A DNA stretch of 51,763 bases, from IMG/VR virus record IMGVR_UViG_3300018428_000030, positions 1-51,763 of that record, one strand, 5' to 3'. Both the position numbers and the translations under genes were made by a program. Below are positions 11,166 to 50,910 of the stretch, one piece after another. Positions within the stretch are counted from its first letter, which is position 1. The number at the start of each line of letters is the position of its first letter. The notes beneath the pieces are model-generated. The model saw nothing but the letters and a program-made list of their open reading frames with translations, did not search any database and was not told the DNA's origin. Source of the DNA: a virus.

Positions 11166-12905
11166 ATGGACGTAAAAAGTCTACTTACAAATAATATGAA
11201 TCCACAGGCCAAATTGATGGAAGAAACGCGTGGATTACAAAACAAGTGGGATAAAACTGGTCTTCTTGAAGGTGTAGCGGGTGTTGAAAAAGCACACATG
11301 TCTATCCTTTTAGAAAATCAAGCTAAACAATTGTTGGACGAAGCTTCAACAACTGGCACATCCGCTAATAGTGAACAATGGGCTGGAGTTGCTCTTCCAT
11401 TGGTAAGACGTGTATTTGCTGAGATTGCAGCTAAGGAATTTGTATCGGTTCAACCGATGAATCTTCCTTCTGGTCTCATCTTTTACTTGGACTTCAAATA
11501 TGGAAACAACGGATTAGGTCATACAGCTGGTGATAGTTTATTCGGTGGTAACAATAAGAAATTAGGTTCCACAGATGAAGCTGTTAAAGGTCTCTATGGT
11601 CAAGGTAGTTTTGCTTACTCTGAAAGAAGTGCTAGTAGTAATGGTGGTGCTTCAAGTAATGGTATCTTCACAGTTGCCTCTGCTTCTTTGAGTGAAACTC
11701 AGTTCGAATTGTTAAATACTGGTTCTAATGGTCTTGTTAAAGGTGTATACAAATTGACCATTGACATTGATGAAAACACACAAGCTACAGCAGTTGCTGG
11801 TAATGGATATATGTACAACGTTGACTTAAACGCTGTACGTTCTTTCCAAGCTAACAACGCTGCTGGTGCTGCTTACACAATGTTGAATACTTACGCATAT
11901 GCTGATAACACAGGTAGTTTGGCTAACCCATACTACCGCGTACACTTATTCGTAAGTCAGTCATCTGCTGCAGCAACACCTGCCACTACCGGTAGTGTTA
12001 TTTACACAATTCAACCAACTGACGATACCCGTGGTGACTTTGAGGATGGTAAAACTGCTGGTGAAGGTTCTGGTGACTCCGCGTTCACTGAAACCCAAGC
12101 TATTGGTGCAGACATTAACATCCCAGAAGTTAACTTGGAACTCAAGAGTGAGCCAATCGTTGCTAAAACTCGTAAATTGAAAGCAGTCTGGACTCCAGAA
12201 CTTGCTCAAGATTTAAATGCTTATCATAGTATTGATGCAGAAGCAGAATTAACTGCTCTGTTATCTGAGTACGTATCGATGGAAATTGATCTTGAAATCC
12301 TTGACATGCTGAATGAATCAGTTCTTGGTAGTACAACCGAAGCTTGGTCCGCCCAAATCGGTACAGAATACACCAAGAGTGTAAATTCTACAACTGGAAG
12401 AGCTTCTTTCACAAGAAATATCGATGCTTCTCCAAATCGTACCGCTTATGTCAAACAAACTTGGTTCCAAACTCTTGGAAACAAGATTCAAAAGGTATCT
12501 AACAAGATTCACCAATTGACATTACGTGGTGGTGCTAACTTCTTGGTATGTTCACCAGACGTTGCAACAATCCTTGAGTCTATTCCAGGGTATGTTGTTA
12601 ACACTGATGGCGATCAAGCTAAGTTCGCAATGGGTGTAAGCCGTGTTGGTAGCTTCGCAAGTAGATTCCAAGTTTACAAGAACCCTTATATGACCGACAA
12701 TGCAATTCTTGTTGGTTTCCGTGGTTCTAACTTCTTGGAAACTGGTGCGGTATATGCTCCATACATTCCGCTTATCCAAACTCCATTAGTATACGATCCA
12801 ACAAACTTCACACCACGTAGAGGGGTAATGACTCGCTACGCTAAGAAGGTTGTTCGTCCTGAGTTCTACGGTAAGGTTCTTATCTCTGATCTCGACACTG
12901 TATAA
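11166..12905 (+). CDS. Major capsid protein (T4 gp23-like)
   Basis: A 579-residue HK97-fold capsid protein; T4 gp23 has 521. KAHMSILLENQAKQLLDEAS (43-61) followed by GVALPLVRRVFAEIAAKEFV is the hallmark of T4-type gp23. The sequence L-D-E (57-59) before Ala fits the L-x-E cleavage rule of the T4 prohead protease, so about 59 residues would be removed on maturation. A Ser/Thr/Gly/Asn-rich insertion (about 140-290) probably forms an exposed surface domain. The C-terminus, ending RPEFYGKVLISDLDTV, is typical. The gene has an AGGAG ribosome site and its own strong terminator, and uses more C-ending codons than its neighbours, consistent with very high expression. Confidence 0.98.
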   Translation: MDVKSLLTNNMNPQAKLMEETRGLQNKWDKTGLLEGVAGVEKAHMSILLENQAKQLLDEASTTGTSANSEQWAGVALPLVRRVFAEIAAKEFVSVQPMNLPSGLIFYLDFKYGNNGLGHTAGDSLFGGNNKKLGSTDEAVKGLYGQGSFAYSERSASSNGGASSNGIFTVASASLSETQFELLNTGSNGLVKGVYKLTIDIDENTQATAVAGNGYMYNVDLNAVRSFQANNAAGAAYTMLNTYAYADNTGSLANPYYRVHLFVSQSSAAATPATTGSVIYTIQPTDDTRGDFEDGKTAGEGSGDSAFTETQAIGADINIPEVNLELKSEPIVAKTRKLKAVWTPELAQDLNAYHSIDAEAELTALLSEYVSMEIDLEILDMLNESVLGSTTEAWSAQIGTEYTKSVNSTTGRASFTRNIDASPNRTAYVKQTWFQTLGNKIQKVSNKIHQLTLRGGANFLVCSPDVATILESIPGYVVNTDGDQAKFAMGVSRVGSFASRFQVYKNPYMTDNAILVGFRGSNFLETGAVYAPYIPLIQTPLVYDPTNFTPRRGVMTRYAKKVVRPEFYGKVLISDLDTV

Positions 12906-14213: not shown

Positions 14214-14651
14214 ATGATTCCAGTTGAGTTGATATCTATGGCTGCCGGAAGTTTAACCGGTTTTATCTTTAAGTTTTGGGCCCAACGTGCTAAGGAACGA
14301 CACGATAATTTTCAATTAGCTTTACAAGGTATAGAAGCTCTTGAGAAATCAAGAAATAATGCTGTTGAACGTGTTCCTGTTGATGCTGGCAAATGGGTTA
14401 GAAGACTTATTGTCGTTAGTACTTTATTTGGAGTAATTATTGCTCCATTTATTTTATCAATATTAGATGAGCCAATATATGTTCAAGTAGACTCAATGAC
14501 GACATCATTTTTATTTGGATTGTTTGGTGGTACTCCAGAGACTTATTTTGTTAGAATTGATGGATATCTTATGATTCCAGAAGTTAGGCAGACACTAACT
14601 GCGATTGTTGGATTTTATTTTGGTAGTTCAACAGTTTCATCAACACGGTAG
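14214..14651 (+). CDS. Holin-like three-segment membrane protein
   Basis: A 145-residue protein. A short N-terminal hydrophobic stretch (MIPVELISMAAGSLTGFIFK) is followed by a basic amphipathic helix (about 23-60). A clear membrane segment follows (VRRLIVVSTLFGVIIAPFIL, about 62-82) and then a second hydrophobic region ending TLTAIVGFYFGSSTVSSTR. Size, layout and the final GFYFGSS segment resemble three-TM phage holins, which oligomerise in the inner membrane and release the lytic enzyme. It is followed three bases later by a spanin-like lipoprotein, which strengthens the lysis assignment. Substrate-free evidence only: it could be another small phage membrane protein. Confidence 0.6.
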   Translation: MIPVELISMAAGSLTGFIFKFWAQRAKERHDNFQLALQGIEALEKSRNNAVERVPVDAGKWVRRLIVVSTLFGVIIAPFILSILDEPIYVQVDSMTTSFLFGLFGGTPETYFVRIDGYLMIPEVRQTLTAIVGFYFGSSTVSSTR

Positions 14652-20023: not shown

Positions 20024-20515
20024 ATGGCAGAATTACTAAATCCAACAGAAATTTTTTACACAGCGTTTGAACCTAAAGTTCAAAACAGACACATCTTATA
20101 TTGTGACGGTGTACCTTCATTTATTATCAAAAAGGTAGCCAGACCAAATATTCAGCAAGCAGCCAAAGAACTGGACCACATCAATATCAAAACTTTTTAT
20201 AAAGGAAAAAGTGTATGGCAACCAGTAGCAATGGAACTTTATGACCCAATTGTTCCATCTGGGGCTCAAGCAGTGATGGAATGGGTCCGTCTACACCATG
20301 AATCCGTAACTGGCCGTGATGGTTATCAAGATTTCTATAAAAAAGATTTAACCGTTAATGTATTAGGTCCAGTTGGTGATAAAGTTGAAGAATGGACTCT
20401 CAAAGGAGCATTTATTACTGATGCTAATTTTGGTGAACTGGATTGGAGCAATGACGGTGATGCTTTAATGATTAATTTGACAGTACAACCAGATTATTGT
20501 ATACTACAATACTAG
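20024..20515 (+). CDS. Tail tube protein (T4 gp19-like)
   Basis: A 163-residue protein identical in length to T4 gp19. It starts MAELLNPTEIFYTAFEPKVQNR and contains FIIKKVARPNI, KSVWQPVAMELYDPI and DANFGELDWSND, all fitting T4-type tail tubes. Hexamers stack to form the inner tube that is driven through the envelope. The tail sheath (gp18), normally upstream in T4-like phages, is not in this window. It has a good Shine-Dalgarno site and its own terminator, consistent with high expression. Confidence 0.93.
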   Translation: MAELLNPTEIFYTAFEPKVQNRHILYCDGVPSFIIKKVARPNIQQAAKELDHINIKTFYKGKSVWQPVAMELYDPIVPSGAQAVMEWVRLHHESVTGRDGYQDFYKKDLTVNVLGPVGDKVEEWTLKGAFITDANFGELDWSNDGDALMINLTVQPDYCILQY

Positions 20516-32220: not shown

Positions 32221-33516
32221 GTGGTAAAATCATCTAAAGTATATTTAAAAATAATTTGTCGTGATGGGAATATACACCCATTTTATGATGAACCTATTGC
32301 AGCATTTATATACAATTATGATACAAATAAAATATCATATTACAATTTTTCCCACACCGATTTACAACCAGATTGTACTTTCTTGGAATTCAAGAAACAA
32401 TTGAATGCTAATAAAATTTATGTCAATAACAAAAAGCGCTATAAGTATTATTTAGATGACGTGAATTTATATGATGTTAATTTATTTTCATTTATTGATA
32501 CGGGTGATATAATTGAGTATAAATCTTCTCCTTCTACCAACCATTTAAGAATGAAACATAATGGAATAAATCAATTTAATTTGATTGTTCCTTATGTTAT
32601 CCATCAGAGTGAATTTCATGGTGAAGTAGATTTAGTTCATAATATTGATGACAAAAATTCAGATTCATATTGTTTTAAATTTTTCAACAATATAGCGTCG
32701 GATACTTTATTTGAAATTGAAAAAAATGGTTTATCTGTTGATACTTCTATATTCAAAAAATATTTTGATGCTAAGGTAATTAATGATTCGGTTCGCACAG
32801 AATACAACATTTATAATCCTACAGGTCGACCAAGTAATAAATTTGATAATGTTAACTATGTTGCTCTTAATAAAGAAAATGGTTGTAGATCGAGTTTTAA
32901 ATCTAGATATGATAATGGTCAATTGTTAATGGTAGATTTCACCGGTTTTCATCCATATCTAGTATCACAACTAATACAGTATAAAGTACCTGATAATGAA
33001 ACAATCTATGAACACTTAGCAAAACAATATTATAACATTGAATCAGTAGACAAAAAAACCATGGCTAGATCTAAAAAATTAACAATGGTTAATTTGTATG
33101 GACAAATAAATAAAAAATATCTTAAAATTCCTTATTTTGAAAAAGTAGAAGAATTGAAAGAAAACTACTGGGTTGATTTTACTAAAAATGGTTATGTTTC
33201 TACACCAATATATAAAAGAAAAATTAATAAAAACCATATAACAGATCCAAATAAAAACAAATTATTTGCTTATATAATTCAAGCAACAGAAACTGAATAT
33301 GGATTGAATGCATTAAATAATGTTATTAAATATGTTGTTGGTAAAGATATTATACCCATTCTGTATGTGTATGATTGTATTGTTTTTGATATAAAAAATT
33401 GTGACATACATAATTCTAATATACGAGATGTAATTAATATTATCCAAAGCAATAGGTTTAAAGTAAAAGTTTATATGGGAAATAATTACAATGAATTGAA
33501 ATTAGTTGATTTATAG
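32221..33516 (+). CDS. Divergent family-A DNA polymerase-like protein
   Basis: A 431-residue protein (GTG start). The last 240 residues follow the order of family-A polymerase motifs: TGRPSN (201-206, like TGRLSS), motif A LLMVDFTGFHPYLVSQLI (D239), O-helix ARSKKLTMVNLYGQ (K285 and Y293 at the E. coli K758 and Y766 positions), GYVSTPIYKRK (324-334, like GYVETLFGRRR), and motif C LYVYDCIVFD (D385). Both metal-binding aspartates are kept. Differences: the steric-gate Glu of motif A is replaced (DFTGFH, His), HDE in motif C is YDC, and the O-helix Phe is Met. There is no 3'-5' or 5' exonuclease domain; the N-terminal 190 residues are unrecognised. It could be an active specialised polymerase or a repurposed one. 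Confidence 0.7.
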   Translation: MVKSSKVYLKIICRDGNIHPFYDEPIAAFIYNYDTNKISYYNFSHTDLQPDCTFLEFKKQLNANKIYVNNKKRYKYYLDDVNLYDVNLFSFIDTGDIIEYKSSPSTNHLRMKHNGINQFNLIVPYVIHQSEFHGEVDLVHNIDDKNSDSYCFKFFNNIASDTLFEIEKNGLSVDTSIFKKYFDAKVINDSVRTEYNIYNPTGRPSNKFDNVNYVALNKENGCRSSFKSRYDNGQLLMVDFTGFHPYLVSQLIQYKVPDNETIYEHLAKQYYNIESVDKKTMARSKKLTMVNLYGQINKKYLKIPYFEKVEELKENYWVDFTKNGYVSTPIYKRKINKNHITDPNKNKLFAYIIQATETEYGLNALNNVIKYVVGKDIIPILYVYDCIVFDIKNCDIHNSNIRDVINIIQSNRFKVKVYMGNNYNELKLVDL

Positions 33517-40666: not shown

Positions 40667-42844
40667 ATGAAAAAAGATATTTTTATTAAAAAAAGAAGCG
40701 GATCTGTTGAGAAGTTTAGTGCAGACAAAATTAATAGAGTGCTACAGTGGGCTACTGATGGTATAAAGGGCGTTAGTTTTGAAGAAGTTGCTATGAATGC
40801 TCATCTTAATTTCTTTGATGGCATGACATCAAAAGACATTCATTCAATGTTGATTGAAGCGGCTTCGAATTTGATTACAGAGGATAAATCAAATTATCAG
40901 TTTGTTGCTTCACGATTATTGAATTATCAGTTAAGAAAAGAAGTTTGGGGTGGTAAAAACCCGCCAAAATTGTATGATATCGTCAAAGAAAACACTAAAT
41001 TGTTGATATACGACGAAGATATTCTAGAATGGTATTCAAAACAAGAATTTGATAAATTAGATGAATACTTAAAACACGATAGAGATTTTCTATTTTCATA
41101 TGCTGGAATTAAACAATTATGTGACAAATATTTAGTTCAAAATAGATCAATAAAAAAAATATATGAAACGCCACAGTTTGCTTATATGTTAATTGCTATG
41201 ACGTTTTTTAAAGATTATAAAGAACGTAGAATAGAATTAGTCAAAAAAGCATACACCTATTTCAGTAAACATAAAATCAATTTACCTACTCCAATTATGG
41301 CTGGTGTTAGAACTCCTATGAAGAGTTATGCTAGTTGTTCGCTATTTACTGTCGATGATACACTGAAAAGTATTTTTAGTAATAATAGTGCTGTTGGTTT
41401 TGCTACAGCTAGTAGATATGGTATTGGACTAAATTTATCTAGATTGAGAGCTACGAATTCTCCTATTAGAAATGGAGAAGTTATTCACACCGGTCCAATC
41501 CCATTTGCCAAAACATTTGAAAGTACTGTGAAAAGTTGTCATCAAAATGGTATTCGTGGCGGAAGTGCAACTGTAAACTTTTCATGGTTTCATTATGATA
41601 TATTGGATATTTTAGTTCTTAAAAACAATGCTGGTACAGACGATAATCGTGTTCGTAAATTAGATTACTGTATTGGTATGGATAAAGTTTTGTTTGAAAG
41701 ATTTTTAAAGAATCAAGAAATTACTTTATTTAGTTATCACGAATGTCCAGAGTTATGGGATAACTTCGGTCTTGAAAATTTTAAAGAGCTATATGAACAA
41801 GCAGAAAATAATAAGAATATAAAATTTAAAAAGAAAATTAGTGCTAGAGAATTAATGATGATGTTGTCTAAAGAACGTCTAGAGACTGGGCGTATTTATA
41901 CAATGTTTATAGATCATGCAAATTCTCATGGAAGTTGGATAGAACAAGTAGATACAAGTAATTTATGTTTAGAAGTAAATCATCCACTTATTCCAATTAA
42001 CGATGTTAATGATCCAGATGGAGAAATTGGTGTTTGTATTCTTGCTGCTGTTAATTGGTTAGAAATTAAAGATGATACTGAGATGAAAAATGTTTGTGAA
42101 GTAATTGTTAGAATGTTAGATTCTTTAATTGAACATCAAGATTATTTTGTACCTGCTGCTGAAAATTTTGCTAAGAAACGTAGAAGTCTTGGAGTAGGGG
42201 TTAGTAATTTGGCCGCACTATTAGCGAAAGAAGGTGTAAAATATTATGACGATGAAGCTCCAAATATTGCTGCTAGGTGGATGGAAAAACAAAGTTACTA
42301 TCTAATCAAAGCGTCAGTTAAAATGGCAAAAGAAATGGGTGTATGTGAGAAGTTTGAAAAATCCAAATTTAGTAAAGCCATTTTGCCAATTGATACATAC
42401 AAACCTGACATAAATGAATTTATTACAGAACCATTAAATATGGATTGGGAATCTCTCAGAGAAGAAATAAAAAAACATGGAATGAGACACTCCACACTAA
42501 CCGCATGTATGCCGGTTGAATCTAGTAGTGTTATTCAAAGTTCTACTAATGGTATTGAACCACCACGTAGTTTAATCAGTTTTAAGGGAAGTAAAAGTAA
42601 TATTTTACCTGTTGTAGTTCCTGGTATAGAAAAATTTAAACAAAATTATACATTTGCTTTTGATATGCCAGACAATGATGGTTATTTAAAAGTAGCAGCT
42701 GCTATACAAAAGTTTACAGACATGAGTATTAGCACTAACACTTATTATGTACCATCTCGTTATCAAAATAATAAAGTTCCAGTTCAAGAAGTTATAAAAG
42801 ATATGTTATTGGAAAACAAGAATGGTATAAAAATTTTGTATTAG
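40667..42844 (+). CDS. nrdA: Ribonucleotide reductase class Ia large subunit, interrupted by in-frame TAG
   Basis: This 725-codon frame carries the ATP-cone (KKDIFIKKRSGSVEKF), MAGVRTPMKSYASCSL (active-site Cys equivalent to E. coli C225), SNLCLEV (N, C439 and E441 equivalents) and IGVCILAAVNW (C462 equivalent). It would reduce ribonucleotides to deoxyribonucleotides with NrdB. It ends at a TAG (42842-42844) after NGIKILY. In E. coli the matching sequence is VKTLYYQ, so the TAG falls on the Tyr731 codon, part of the radical-transfer path; the following frame encodes the missing C-terminal tail. As written the protein would lack Tyr731 and the redox cysteines. Start: ATG at 40667, no clear ribosome site. 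Confidence 0.95.
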   Translation: MKKDIFIKKRSGSVEKFSADKINRVLQWATDGIKGVSFEEVAMNAHLNFFDGMTSKDIHSMLIEAASNLITEDKSNYQFVASRLLNYQLRKEVWGGKNPPKLYDIVKENTKLLIYDEDILEWYSKQEFDKLDEYLKHDRDFLFSYAGIKQLCDKYLVQNRSIKKIYETPQFAYMLIAMTFFKDYKERRIELVKKAYTYFSKHKINLPTPIMAGVRTPMKSYASCSLFTVDDTLKSIFSNNSAVGFATASRYGIGLNLSRLRATNSPIRNGEVIHTGPIPFAKTFESTVKSCHQNGIRGGSATVNFSWFHYDILDILVLKNNAGTDDNRVRKLDYCIGMDKVLFERFLKNQEITLFSYHECPELWDNFGLENFKELYEQAENNKNIKFKKKISARELMMMLSKERLETGRIYTMFIDHANSHGSWIEQVDTSNLCLEVNHPLIPINDVNDPDGEIGVCILAAVNWLEIKDDTEMKNVCEVIVRMLDSLIEHQDYFVPAAENFAKKRRSLGVGVSNLAALLAKEGVKYYDDEAPNIAARWMEKQSYYLIKASVKMAKEMGVCEKFEKSKFSKAILPIDTYKPDINEFITEPLNMDWESLREEIKKHGMRHSTLTACMPVESSSVIQSSTNGIEPPRSLISFKGSKSNILPVVVPGIEKFKQNYTFAFDMPDNDGYLKVAAAIQKFTDMSISTNTYYVPSRYQNNKVPVQEVIKDMLLENKNGIKILY

Positions 42845-42955
42845 GCAAATCCCGCCGAGGGAGAAAAACAAACTGTAATGAACGCAGGTGATGCTAGCAT
42901 TGAAAATCAAATTATAGAAGAATCGGGATGTGCTGGTGGTGCTTGTGCCTTATAA
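42845..42955 (+). other. In-frame nrdA C-terminal tail after the TAG
   Basis: Directly after the TAG the same frame stays open for 36 codons to a TAA at 42953-42955. It reads ANPAEGEKQTV, then MNAGDASIENQII and ends EESGCAGGACAL. The last part matches the C-terminal redox motif of NrdA (E. coli ends CESGACKI: Cys-x-x-x-x-Cys). With one residue for the TAG the total is 762, against 761 for E. coli NrdA. The tail cysteines re-reduce the active site. Separate translation from the ATG at 42878 would give only a 25-residue peptide without a ribosome site. Confidence 0.85.
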
Positions 42956-42965
42956 CAATTAATAT

Positions 42966-44024
42966 ATGAAAACTGTGCTAAATAAATCGAATATTGACCA
43001 ACTGAAGAATCCGATGTTTTTCGGAGATGATTTATCTTTACAAAGATATGACCTAATTAAGTATCCAAAATTTTATGATCTTTATGATCAACAACTTAAT
43101 TTCTTTTGGAGACCACAAGAAGTTAGTCTGGTAAAAGATATTAGTGACTATAAATCATTATCAAATGAAGAAAGATTTGTATTTGATAGTAATTTAAAAT
43201 TTCAAACTATGACTGATAGTATGCTTAGTCGCAGTATTCATGAGTTGATGAAACATGTCACAAATTCTGAGTTAGAAATTTGTATGAATACGTGGAGCTT
43301 TTTTGAAACGATTCACAGTAATTCTTATACGTATATTCTTCAAAATGTATACCCAGATGCTACAAAGTTTTTCAATAGTATTTTAGAGGATGATCAAATT
43401 GTAAAAAGAGCTAAAGCCATTAGTAAAAAATATGATCAATTATTAAACAGTAAAGGAGATGAAAAGCAACAAATGTTTGATGCTATATTAGCAACACAAA
43501 TAACTGAGGGTCTTATCTTTTATGTGTCATTTGCTTGTAGTTTTTATTTTGGATATCGTGGAAAAATGGAAGGTAACGCTAAAATAATTAAATTTATTTC
43601 GAGAGATGAGAATCTCCACGTTGCTATTACTCAAAACATTATGAAAAATTGGGCTAATAATTCATCCGAAGGGTTTCAAGATATTGTTAAAAAGAGTGAG
43701 GATAAAGTATATGCTGCTTATGAAATGGCTGTTGAAGCTGAAAAAGATTGGGCAGACTATTTGTTTAGTAAAGGTAGTCTTATAGGACTGACTGCTGAGA
43801 GTTTAAAACATTACATTGAATGGTTAGCAAATAATAGATTAACAAGTCTTGGATATAAGAAACTTTACCCACAAACAAAAGTAAATCCATTATCTGGCTG
43901 GTTGGATAGTTATTATGACAGTAAAAAACTACAGGTTGCTCCACAAGAAACAGAGCTGAGTAGTTATGTTAAAGGTGTTGATAACACAATAAATGAGGAA
44001 GAATTTGCTGATTTTAAATTATAA
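42966..44024 (+). CDS. nrdB: Ribonucleotide reductase class Ia small subunit
   Basis: A 352-residue protein; E. coli NrdB has 376. Diiron and radical residues are visible: LKFQTMTDSM (Asp ligand), ETIHSNSY (Glu and His ligands, then the radical Tyr like E. coli Y122), EGLIFYVSFACSF (Glu ligand) and RDENLHVAITQ (Glu and His ligands). The C-terminus TELSSYVKGVDNTINEEEFADFKL includes a Tyr in the place of E. coli Y356. The protein therefore looks fully functional, in contrast to the interrupted nrdA. It starts 10 bases after the NrdA tail stop. Confidence 0.95.
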   Translation: MKTVLNKSNIDQLKNPMFFGDDLSLQRYDLIKYPKFYDLYDQQLNFFWRPQEVSLVKDISDYKSLSNEERFVFDSNLKFQTMTDSMLSRSIHELMKHVTNSELEICMNTWSFFETIHSNSYTYILQNVYPDATKFFNSILEDDQIVKRAKAISKKYDQLLNSKGDEKQQMFDAILATQITEGLIFYVSFACSFYFGYRGKMEGNAKIIKFISRDENLHVAITQNIMKNWANNSSEGFQDIVKKSEDKVYAAYEMAVEAEKDWADYLFSKGSLIGLTAESLKHYIEWLANNRLTSLGYKKLYPQTKVNPLSGWLDSYYDSKKLQVAPQETELSSYVKGVDNTINEEEFADFKL

Positions 44025-44072: not shown

Positions 44073-44714
44073 ATGAACAATAGAGTTAAATTAAAAAAAG
44101 CTATTAAAAAACTCGTACAAGAAGTAATTCAGGAGAAGACCACTGCTGTTGATAGAACGTGGGATTCTATGATGGAAACACTTTCTAAAGAGATTAAAAA
44201 GCCTATAATGTTAGATGATGCTGGTAATTACAATATTTGTGAATGTGAACCACATCATATTAGTTTAAGACCTATTGTGCATGACGTATTTGATCTTCTT
44301 TATATAAAAGACGGTGTTCAAAGACAAAAAGTTTTATTCGTACCCTTCGAAGACGTACAGAAGTATGTAAATGAATGGTTAAAATCGAAAGATCTTAATT
44401 ATGTTGATAATTCATACGAAAGATGTGTAGACAACAGTAAAGATAAAGAAGGTGGAAGTAAAGCGAATAAACAATCCGATGATTTAACAGTTGATCCTGA
44501 GAAAGATTATGCTCCTGTTAAAAACATAAAAGCGGAGGATGAGAATCCTAAAGAAGATGATCCTACAGAACCAATGAGAGATGTAGGTGAGTTTGAAAAA
44601 CAAATTGATTATAAATCCAAAAAGCCTAGTTATGAACCACCCAAACTACCAAAAAGCTTGAATAAATTAGTTGTAAAGTATTCTAAAGTAAATGGCAAAC
44701 CGAGAAAAAGGTAG
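44073..44714 (+). CDS. Charged protein, unknown function
   Basis: A 213-residue protein. The N-terminal helix (NNRVKLKKAIKKLVQEVIQE) resembles basic amphipathic starts common in T4-like phage proteins, some of which are capsid-targeting sequences. Residues about 40-110 form a compact part with CECEPHHISLRPIVHDVFDL; the remainder (about 115-213) is disordered, rich in Lys, Asp, Glu and Pro. A virion-internal role is possible but unsupported. It ends in TAG, close to the next gene. Confidence 0.6.
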   Translation: MNNRVKLKKAIKKLVQEVIQEKTTAVDRTWDSMMETLSKEIKKPIMLDDAGNYNICECEPHHISLRPIVHDVFDLLYIKDGVQRQKVLFVPFEDVQKYVNEWLKSKDLNYVDNSYERCVDNSKDKEGGSKANKQSDDLTVDPEKDYAPVKNIKAEDENPKEDDPTEPMRDVGEFEKQIDYKSKKPSYEPPKLPKSLNKLVVKYSKVNGKPRKR

Positions 44715-45016: not shown

Positions 45017-45400
45017 ATGTATGAATACAATTGTAAGTTGTTAAAAATAGTAGATGGTGATACTATTGATGTATTAATTGATTTAGGATTTCATATATAT
45101 ATAAAAGAACGTGTTAGGTTATATGGCATAAATGCGCCTGAGTGTAGAACAAGAAATTTAGAAGAAAAAAAACGAGGTATTGCTTCAAAAAATCGCTTGA
45201 GAGAAATTATAAGATCATTTGGTAAAAACTTCATTATAAAAACAATATTTGACAAAAAAGGTAAATATGGTAGAATATTAGGTGAAGTATATGATGTAGA
45301 TAAAAAAAATTGTGCGAATAAAATACTTTTAAATGAAGGTCACGCAGTAGAATACTTTGTTACCCCCAAAAAATTAACTAAAAGAAAGGTACACAAATGA
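45017..45400 (+). CDS. Thermonuclease-like (SNase family) nuclease
   Basis: A 127-residue protein. CKLLKIVDGDTIDVLIDLGF, then ERVRLYGINAPECRTR and KYGRILGEVY follow the staphylococcal nuclease fold. The catalytic Asp of VDGDT, the Arg of RVRLYG, the Glu of APE and the Arg of YGRILGEV are all present. SNases cut DNA and RNA with Ca2+. No signal peptide is seen, so it probably acts in the cytoplasm, perhaps in host DNA degradation. The ATG of the next gene overlaps its stop (ATGA at 45397-45400). Confidence 0.9.
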   Translation: MYEYNCKLLKIVDGDTIDVLIDLGFHIYIKERVRLYGINAPECRTRNLEEKKRGIASKNRLREIIRSFGKNFIIKTIFDKKGKYGRILGEVYDVDKKNCANKILLNEGHAVEYFVTPKKLTKRKVHK

Positions 45401-49704: not shown

Positions 49705-50910
49705 ATGCTATTAAATATAAATATGGACACGTTACAAGAATTTTTTGGAATTGAGAAACAAGATTTCGATTATGATGAAAATAAAAGAAAACTAGTAGAC
49801 AACCTAGATTTCTTGAAATCAATGTCTGTAGAAGAACAAACTTTCTATAAAAAGTGGGTGGAAGTTCAATCTTTAGATAAATATATGGATAAATCTATTA
49901 TTGCTAAAAATAAAATATGGACTCCTACCGATTTAAATGATGAAAAACGAACCATAAAAGAAATAGAAGAAATTAATCCAACGGTTGTCTATGTTAAAAA
50001 TAAAACTAATTTAGATACTGATTGGATTATGATGAGAACATTTGTTCACACAATGGCGTATGATCAAACTCCAGGTAGATTTATTAAATTATTAGTTACA
50101 GATGGTAATAAAAGTAACCCACGTTATTTAGGAGCAATTAGTATGTCTAGTGATGTAATTACTATTACTGATAGGGATAAATACATAGGATGGACATCAG
50201 ATCAAAAATTAAAAGATAAAAAACTTAATAACAGCGCTATTGGAAGTTGTATTATGGCTACACAACCATTTGGATACAATTTTCTTGGTGGAAAATTAGT
50301 AGCTGCTTTAGTTACTGGAGAAACTGTAAGAAACCTTTGGAAAGAATTATATGGTCAAGTATTAGCTGGAATCACTACAACTAGTCTATATGGAAGTTAT
50401 AGTATGTATAACAGTTTAAAGTGGTGGCATAAATGTGGTACCAGTGCTGGTAAAATGTCTATTAAACCAGACGACGATGTATATAAGATATGGCATGACT
50501 GGATCAAAGAAAATAAAAGTGAGAAATATACTCAAGTATTAACTCAAAAAGAAGGTGTATCTGGTCCAGTAACTGGAGCTAAAAATCGAGTATTAAATAT
50601 GATTTTTTCACAGTGTGGTATAAAATCTTCAAATTATGTACATGGATTTGAACGGGGTACTTATTATGCTTGTCCATACACCAATAGCAAAGAATTTTTA
50701 AGAAATGAAATAGATGAAGAAAAATTAGTGTTAAATCCAAAATACACTGAAAATTCTATTGTTAGTTGGTGGAAAAATAAAGCTATTTCTAGATATAAAA
50801 ATCTCAAAGATTCTAATAGATTAAAGCCCAATATTCTTTATTATAATAAAATGATGGGTATTTCATATGAAGAATGCAAAAATATGTATTTTGGTGAGGT
50901 AGGACGTTGA
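49705..50910 (+). CDS. DruA/DUF4338-like protein
   Basis: A 401-residue protein; ATG at 49705, or at 49723 giving 395 residues. After an N-terminal helical part (about 1-130), NPRYLGAISMSSDVITITDR, KYIGWTSDQK, AIGSCIMATQPFGYNFLGGK and GITTTSLYGSYSMYN follow the pattern of DUF4338 proteins, the family that includes the Druantia defence protein DruA. Phage relatives of this family exist without a Druantia operon. Its activity is unknown; a link to defence or counter-defence is inference. It is transcribed after a minus-strand gene and just before the repeat protein. Confidence 0.55.
   Translation: MLLNINMDTLQEFFGIEKQDFDYDENKRKLVDNLDFLKSMSVEEQTFYKKWVEVQSLDKYMDKSIIAKNKIWTPTDLNDEKRTIKEIEEINPTVVYVKNKTNLDTDWIMMRTFVHTMAYDQTPGRFIKLLVTDGNKSNPRYLGAISMSSDVITITDRDKYIGWTSDQKLKDKKLNNSAIGSCIMATQPFGYNFLGGKLVAALVTGETVRNLWKELYGQVLAGITTTSLYGSYSMYNSLKWWHKCGTSAGKMSIKPDDDVYKIWHDWIKENKSEKYTQVLTQKEGVSGPVTGAKNRVLNMIFSQCGIKSSNYVHGFERGTYYACPYTNSKEFLRNEIDEEKLVLNPKYTENSIVSWWKNKAISRYKNLKDSNRLKPNILYYNKMMGISYEECKNMYFGEVGR

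Follow-up and report, generated by a model that had tools for sequence, protein, structure and literature searches.

The amber codon that interrupts nrdA in this 51.8-kb fragment of a T4-like phage (the whole stretch of DNA analysed, called the window below) very probably belongs to a local lesion seen in one record only, in an otherwise ordinary phage nrdA, and is not a recoding signal. Within 54 nt, about ten substitutions that each alter an amino acid would have created the TAG and damaged the conserved codons beside it. Natural recoding would gain a striking example if a stop codon were translated at the tyrosine through which ribonucleotide reductase relays its radical, and showing that the lesion belongs to a single record keeps the window nrdA from passing as such a case. 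Counting neighbouring departures from invariant residues is a useful check before recoding is proposed at an unexpected in-frame stop.

An amber codon at the Tyr731 position of NrdA

The in-frame nrdA span (40667-42952) starts with an ATG at 40667 and meets the TAG directly after ...GIKILY. The frame then stays open for 36 codons, up to a TAA at 42953-42955, with ...ESGCAGGACAL as its C-terminal end. The earlier note was thus right that an intact GCAGGACAL tail lies in frame past the TAG and that the protein has 762 residues when the TAG is counted as one. Three Pfam domains were found above cut-off (PF03477, PF00317, and PF02867, i.e., ATP cone, all-alpha, and barrel), as expected of a class Ia NrdA. 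In a sequence search of solved structures, the read-through protein aligned over its full length with E. coli R1 (PDB 2r1r; E = 7.5e-225) and shows the same catalytic and redox-tail layout. The alignment is gap-free near the TAG, whose codon, residue 726, pairs with E. coli Tyr731, exactly as had been proposed from the sequence.

Tyr731 of the E. coli enzyme is the relay through which the radical passes between Y356 of the beta subunit and Y730 of the alpha subunit (PMC9248007). The class Ia radical-relay Tyr pair is incomplete in the window, where Y730 is kept and the Y731 codon is TAG, and the C-terminal redox Cys pair is encoded in frame but past the TAG, so that it falls outside the translated protein. 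From what is established for this enzyme, a 725-residue NrdA lacking both the interfacial radical-relay Tyr731 and the redox cysteines should be inactive. The earlier note had also stated that NrdB keeps its own radical residues, and this is confirmed by the radical-Tyr motif E-x-I-H-S-x-S-Y, read from the window sequence, in a protein that matches its family at all but one of 259 invariant columns.

Table 1. Positions of nrdA, its altered patch, nrdB, and the other genes ending in TAG in the window.
Feature	Position	Strand	Basis
nrdA as written, class Ia ribonucleotide reductase large subunit, 725 codons + TAG	40667..42844	+	Pfam and E. coli R1 alignment
Patch, codons 716-733, nine departures including the TAG	42812..42865	+	Comparison with residues invariant in 65/65 relatives
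In-frame TAG, codon of E. coli Tyr731	42842..42844	+	Sequence, relatives, and E. coli R1 alignment
Open frame past the TAG, redox Cys tail GCAGGACAL, TAA stop	42845..42955	+	13/14 conserved tail sites kept
nrdB, intact small subunit	42966..44024	+	PF00268; 96% identical to L001
Other TAG-ended gene	14214-14651		Closest relative's gene end
Other TAG-ended gene	20024-20515		Closest relative's gene end
Other TAG-ended gene	32221-33516		Closest relative's gene end
Other TAG-ended gene	44073-44714		Closest relative's gene end

A cluster of departures found in one record

Scanning IMG/VR yielded 80 related loci, among which near-identical strains may not be present. The Tyr731 codon is covered by 65 of them, and it is TAT or TAC in all 65, so that the stop lacks the conservation among relatives that would be expected of programmed readthrough. 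The earlier note had itself named such an outcome, Tyr in all relatives and TAG only here, as one that would refute its reading. These T4-like relatives have synteny, nrdA-nrdB order, and the tail in common with the window, but all 65 carry LYYANTDDGDK or LYYANTDDGDR where the window NrdA reads LY*ANPAEGEK. A pattern built on the conserved downstream half matched 97 times in the fetched loci, some of them on contigs shared with the 80-locus set, and Tyr-Tyr stands before all 97 matches. Narrow and broad pattern scans for the TAG form revealed no second NrdA with a stop at this codon; the matches that they gave elsewhere were in unrelated sequence, not NrdA, and were rejected. No closer relative was found through the unusual tail sequence, and we found no relevant paper on premature stops in phage nrdA.

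The TAG had been presented as a lone change; it is really in the sequence, but eight more departures from invariant residues surround it. Departures were defined as changes at columns at least 97% invariant among relatives, with 570 conserved columns in the calculation. The full-length window NrdA has 34 of them, nine of which fall in codons 716-733: four before the TAG (A716E, Y717N, Y719N, and N723I), the TAG itself (Y726stop), and four after it (T729P, D730A, D731E, and D733E), each set against 65 of 65 relatives. The probability of finding 9 of 34 departures within 18 of 570 conserved columns by chance is 1e-7 (hypergeometric). The maximum in any 20-residue stretch of NrdA is nine in the window versus three or fewer in 75 other records, and the other testable genes of the window also show at most three per 20-residue stretch. 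E. coli NrdA likewise differs here, having A721, Y722, F724, T728, and Tyr731 where the window NrdA has E, N, N, I, and the stop.

When the window was compared with its closest relative (L001, NrdA 92% identical), pN was five-fold higher in the patch than elsewhere in nrdA (0.207 vs. 0.043), whereas pS was normal (0.571 vs. 0.567). A raised pN with a normal pS makes the patch unlike foreign, more divergent DNA, and like native sequence bearing extra coding substitutions. Searches for a donor of the patch were negative in IMG/VR viral contigs and in the cellular genome collection, and the window and the fetched relatives gave short chance matches only. The patch contains no indel. Transversions make up 9 of 10 substitutions in its changed codons, compared with 47 of 82 elsewhere, a difference that is suggestive at most (Fisher p = 0.08), and contig ends lie within about 150 nt of the patch in 6 of 69 relatives, a slight enrichment too weak to rely on.

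Outside the patch, the rest of NrdA and NrdB is still constrained and shows little decay, as expected of a recent null allele. The retention of 13 of 14 conserved tail sites beyond the patch points to a lesion that is either recent or spurious. Continued expression of the tail would also keep it constrained, but a lesion too recent for decay seems the simpler reading, since residues flanking the TAG have changed as well and would stay changed whatever amino acid was inserted at it. As to its origin, the patch may well be an assembly or base-call artefact. Assemblers normally require agreeing reads, so that random errors packed this closely should seldom persist, which counts against such an artefact. 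Only slightly less probable is a genuine recent clustered mutation that produced a null allele. Each relative checked has one RNR large-subunit gene, with no second gene that would make nrdA redundant; with a null nrdA, the phage would therefore have to rely on its host, which counts against a null allele.

Possible decoding of the TAG and other proposed roles for the patch

The earlier note had left a choice between readthrough and an error or recent null mutation. The latter is supported by our data, whereas the unique TAG, the damaged patch, and the tRNA searches lend no support to the former. ARAGORN and the Rfam tRNA model detected no tRNA gene in the window, which is a fragment; the Rfam model also detected none in ten related records, nor did ARAGORN in the two fetched whole, one of which is 172 kb long. 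The search for a phage suppressor tRNA (CUA) suggested by the earlier note thus gave none in this fragment or in the ten related records. Several other genes had been said to use TAG as a stop, and four indeed do so (Table 1), each stopping where the closest relative's gene ends or no more than one residue away. The use of TAG as a sense codon throughout the genome was rejected, as TAG is a working stop in these four genes and internal in nrdA only. The TAG-recoded phage phAss-1 also has a TAG inside a conserved gene; in that phage, TAG is reported to lie in many genes (41 ORFs; PMC10607447), whereas in the window this concerns nrdA alone, TAG serves as a stop in other genes, and no tRNA was found.

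It is very unlikely that the TAG is functionally decoded in the host to yield some full-length NrdA, whether as Tyr or as some other residue, and whether through a near-cognate tRNA or through a suppressor tRNA of the host or, unseen, of the phage. Decoding would account for the intact frame, length, and redox tail past the TAG, with 13 of its 14 conserved sites kept, and it also predicts the intact NrdB that is seen. However, besides a stop unique against 65 relatives, the failure to find a tRNA, and the four working TAG stops, the RNA downstream of and around the TAG folds no better than shuffled sequences (z-scores of -0.26 to -0.83 for the window stretches), and decoding the TAG would leave the eight other changed invariant residues unrepaired. 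A variant in which both the patch and the TAG are genuine and fixed, the host translates the TAG, and the changed residues make up a remodelled NrdA-NrdB interface, possibly with a different relay residue, is highly improbable.

A split enzyme, in which a separate tail peptide, translated from the conserved codon 738 ATG with GAGGGAG as ribosome-binding site, would complement truncated NrdA, is the least credible of the readings considered. The tail is conserved, the patch created GAGGGAG about 14 nt upstream of this in-frame ATG, and the split phage NrdA of Aeh1 is functional (PMC2988022), but a 14-nt spacing is long for a ribosome-binding site, none of the relatives has the same arrangement, and Tyr731 would still be absent and the neighbouring interface residues changed. 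The coding sequence of nrdA is interrupted in Aeh1 as it is in the window; in Aeh1, however, this is due to the mobE insertion (PMC2988022), whereas the window nrdA has substitutions only and matches the length of its relatives up to a variable linker. The occurrence of the patch-made GAGGGAG before the codon 738 ATG (window 42857-42880) is probably due to chance.

The patch might also be an escape mutation or a scar, selected or left when this conserved 50-bp stretch was targeted by a homing endonuclease or some other system acting on DNA, with NrdA function sacrificed, although this is unlikely. Conserved gene positions are the usual targets of homing endonucleases (PMC2988022), the patch has the size of a recognition site, and nrdA of several relatives carries mobile elements (L079, L067, L068, and L070). 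Nevertheless, these insertions lie at about residues 436 and 611-636, away from residues 716-733, and none of the relatives carries one at the patch site; moreover, few changes suffice for escape, and the loss of Tyr731 would be unnecessary.

Genome context and mobile elements in related phages

Besides nrdA and nrdB, the window encodes a terminase, a portal, a head protease, a major head protein, a tail tube, a UvsX-like recombinase, a ssDNA-binding protein, an exonuclease, and a DnaB-like helicase. The window is collinear with its closest relative, an IMG/VR record of 100 kb (G001/L001). The terminase and portal genes of G001 are interrupted by about 0.4 kb and 1.0 kb of inserted sequence (L087:10462-10860 and L087:12029-13059), neither insert having an Rfam match above the gathering score, where the window genes are continuous. 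A Staphylococcal-nuclease-like gene (PF00565; window 45017-45400) is missing from G001 and has its best IMG/VR relatives at 55-59% identity, whereas a Druantia DruA-domain protein (PF14236, E = 4e-23; window 49705-50910) is 88% identical in G001.

In L079 (11200-12700), nrdA is interrupted just past the SNLC codons (catalytic Cys) by an apparent split intein with an endonuclease gene embedded in it, as judged by eye. An N-terminal intein half is followed by a separate GIY-YIG-like ORF (11678-12439) and by a C-terminal intein half fused to the remainder of nrdA. Inserts at the same place and of the same size are found in nrdA of L067, L068, and L070, and L067 carries a second nrdA insertion of about 1.5 kb (L067:13133-14614) near residues 611-636.
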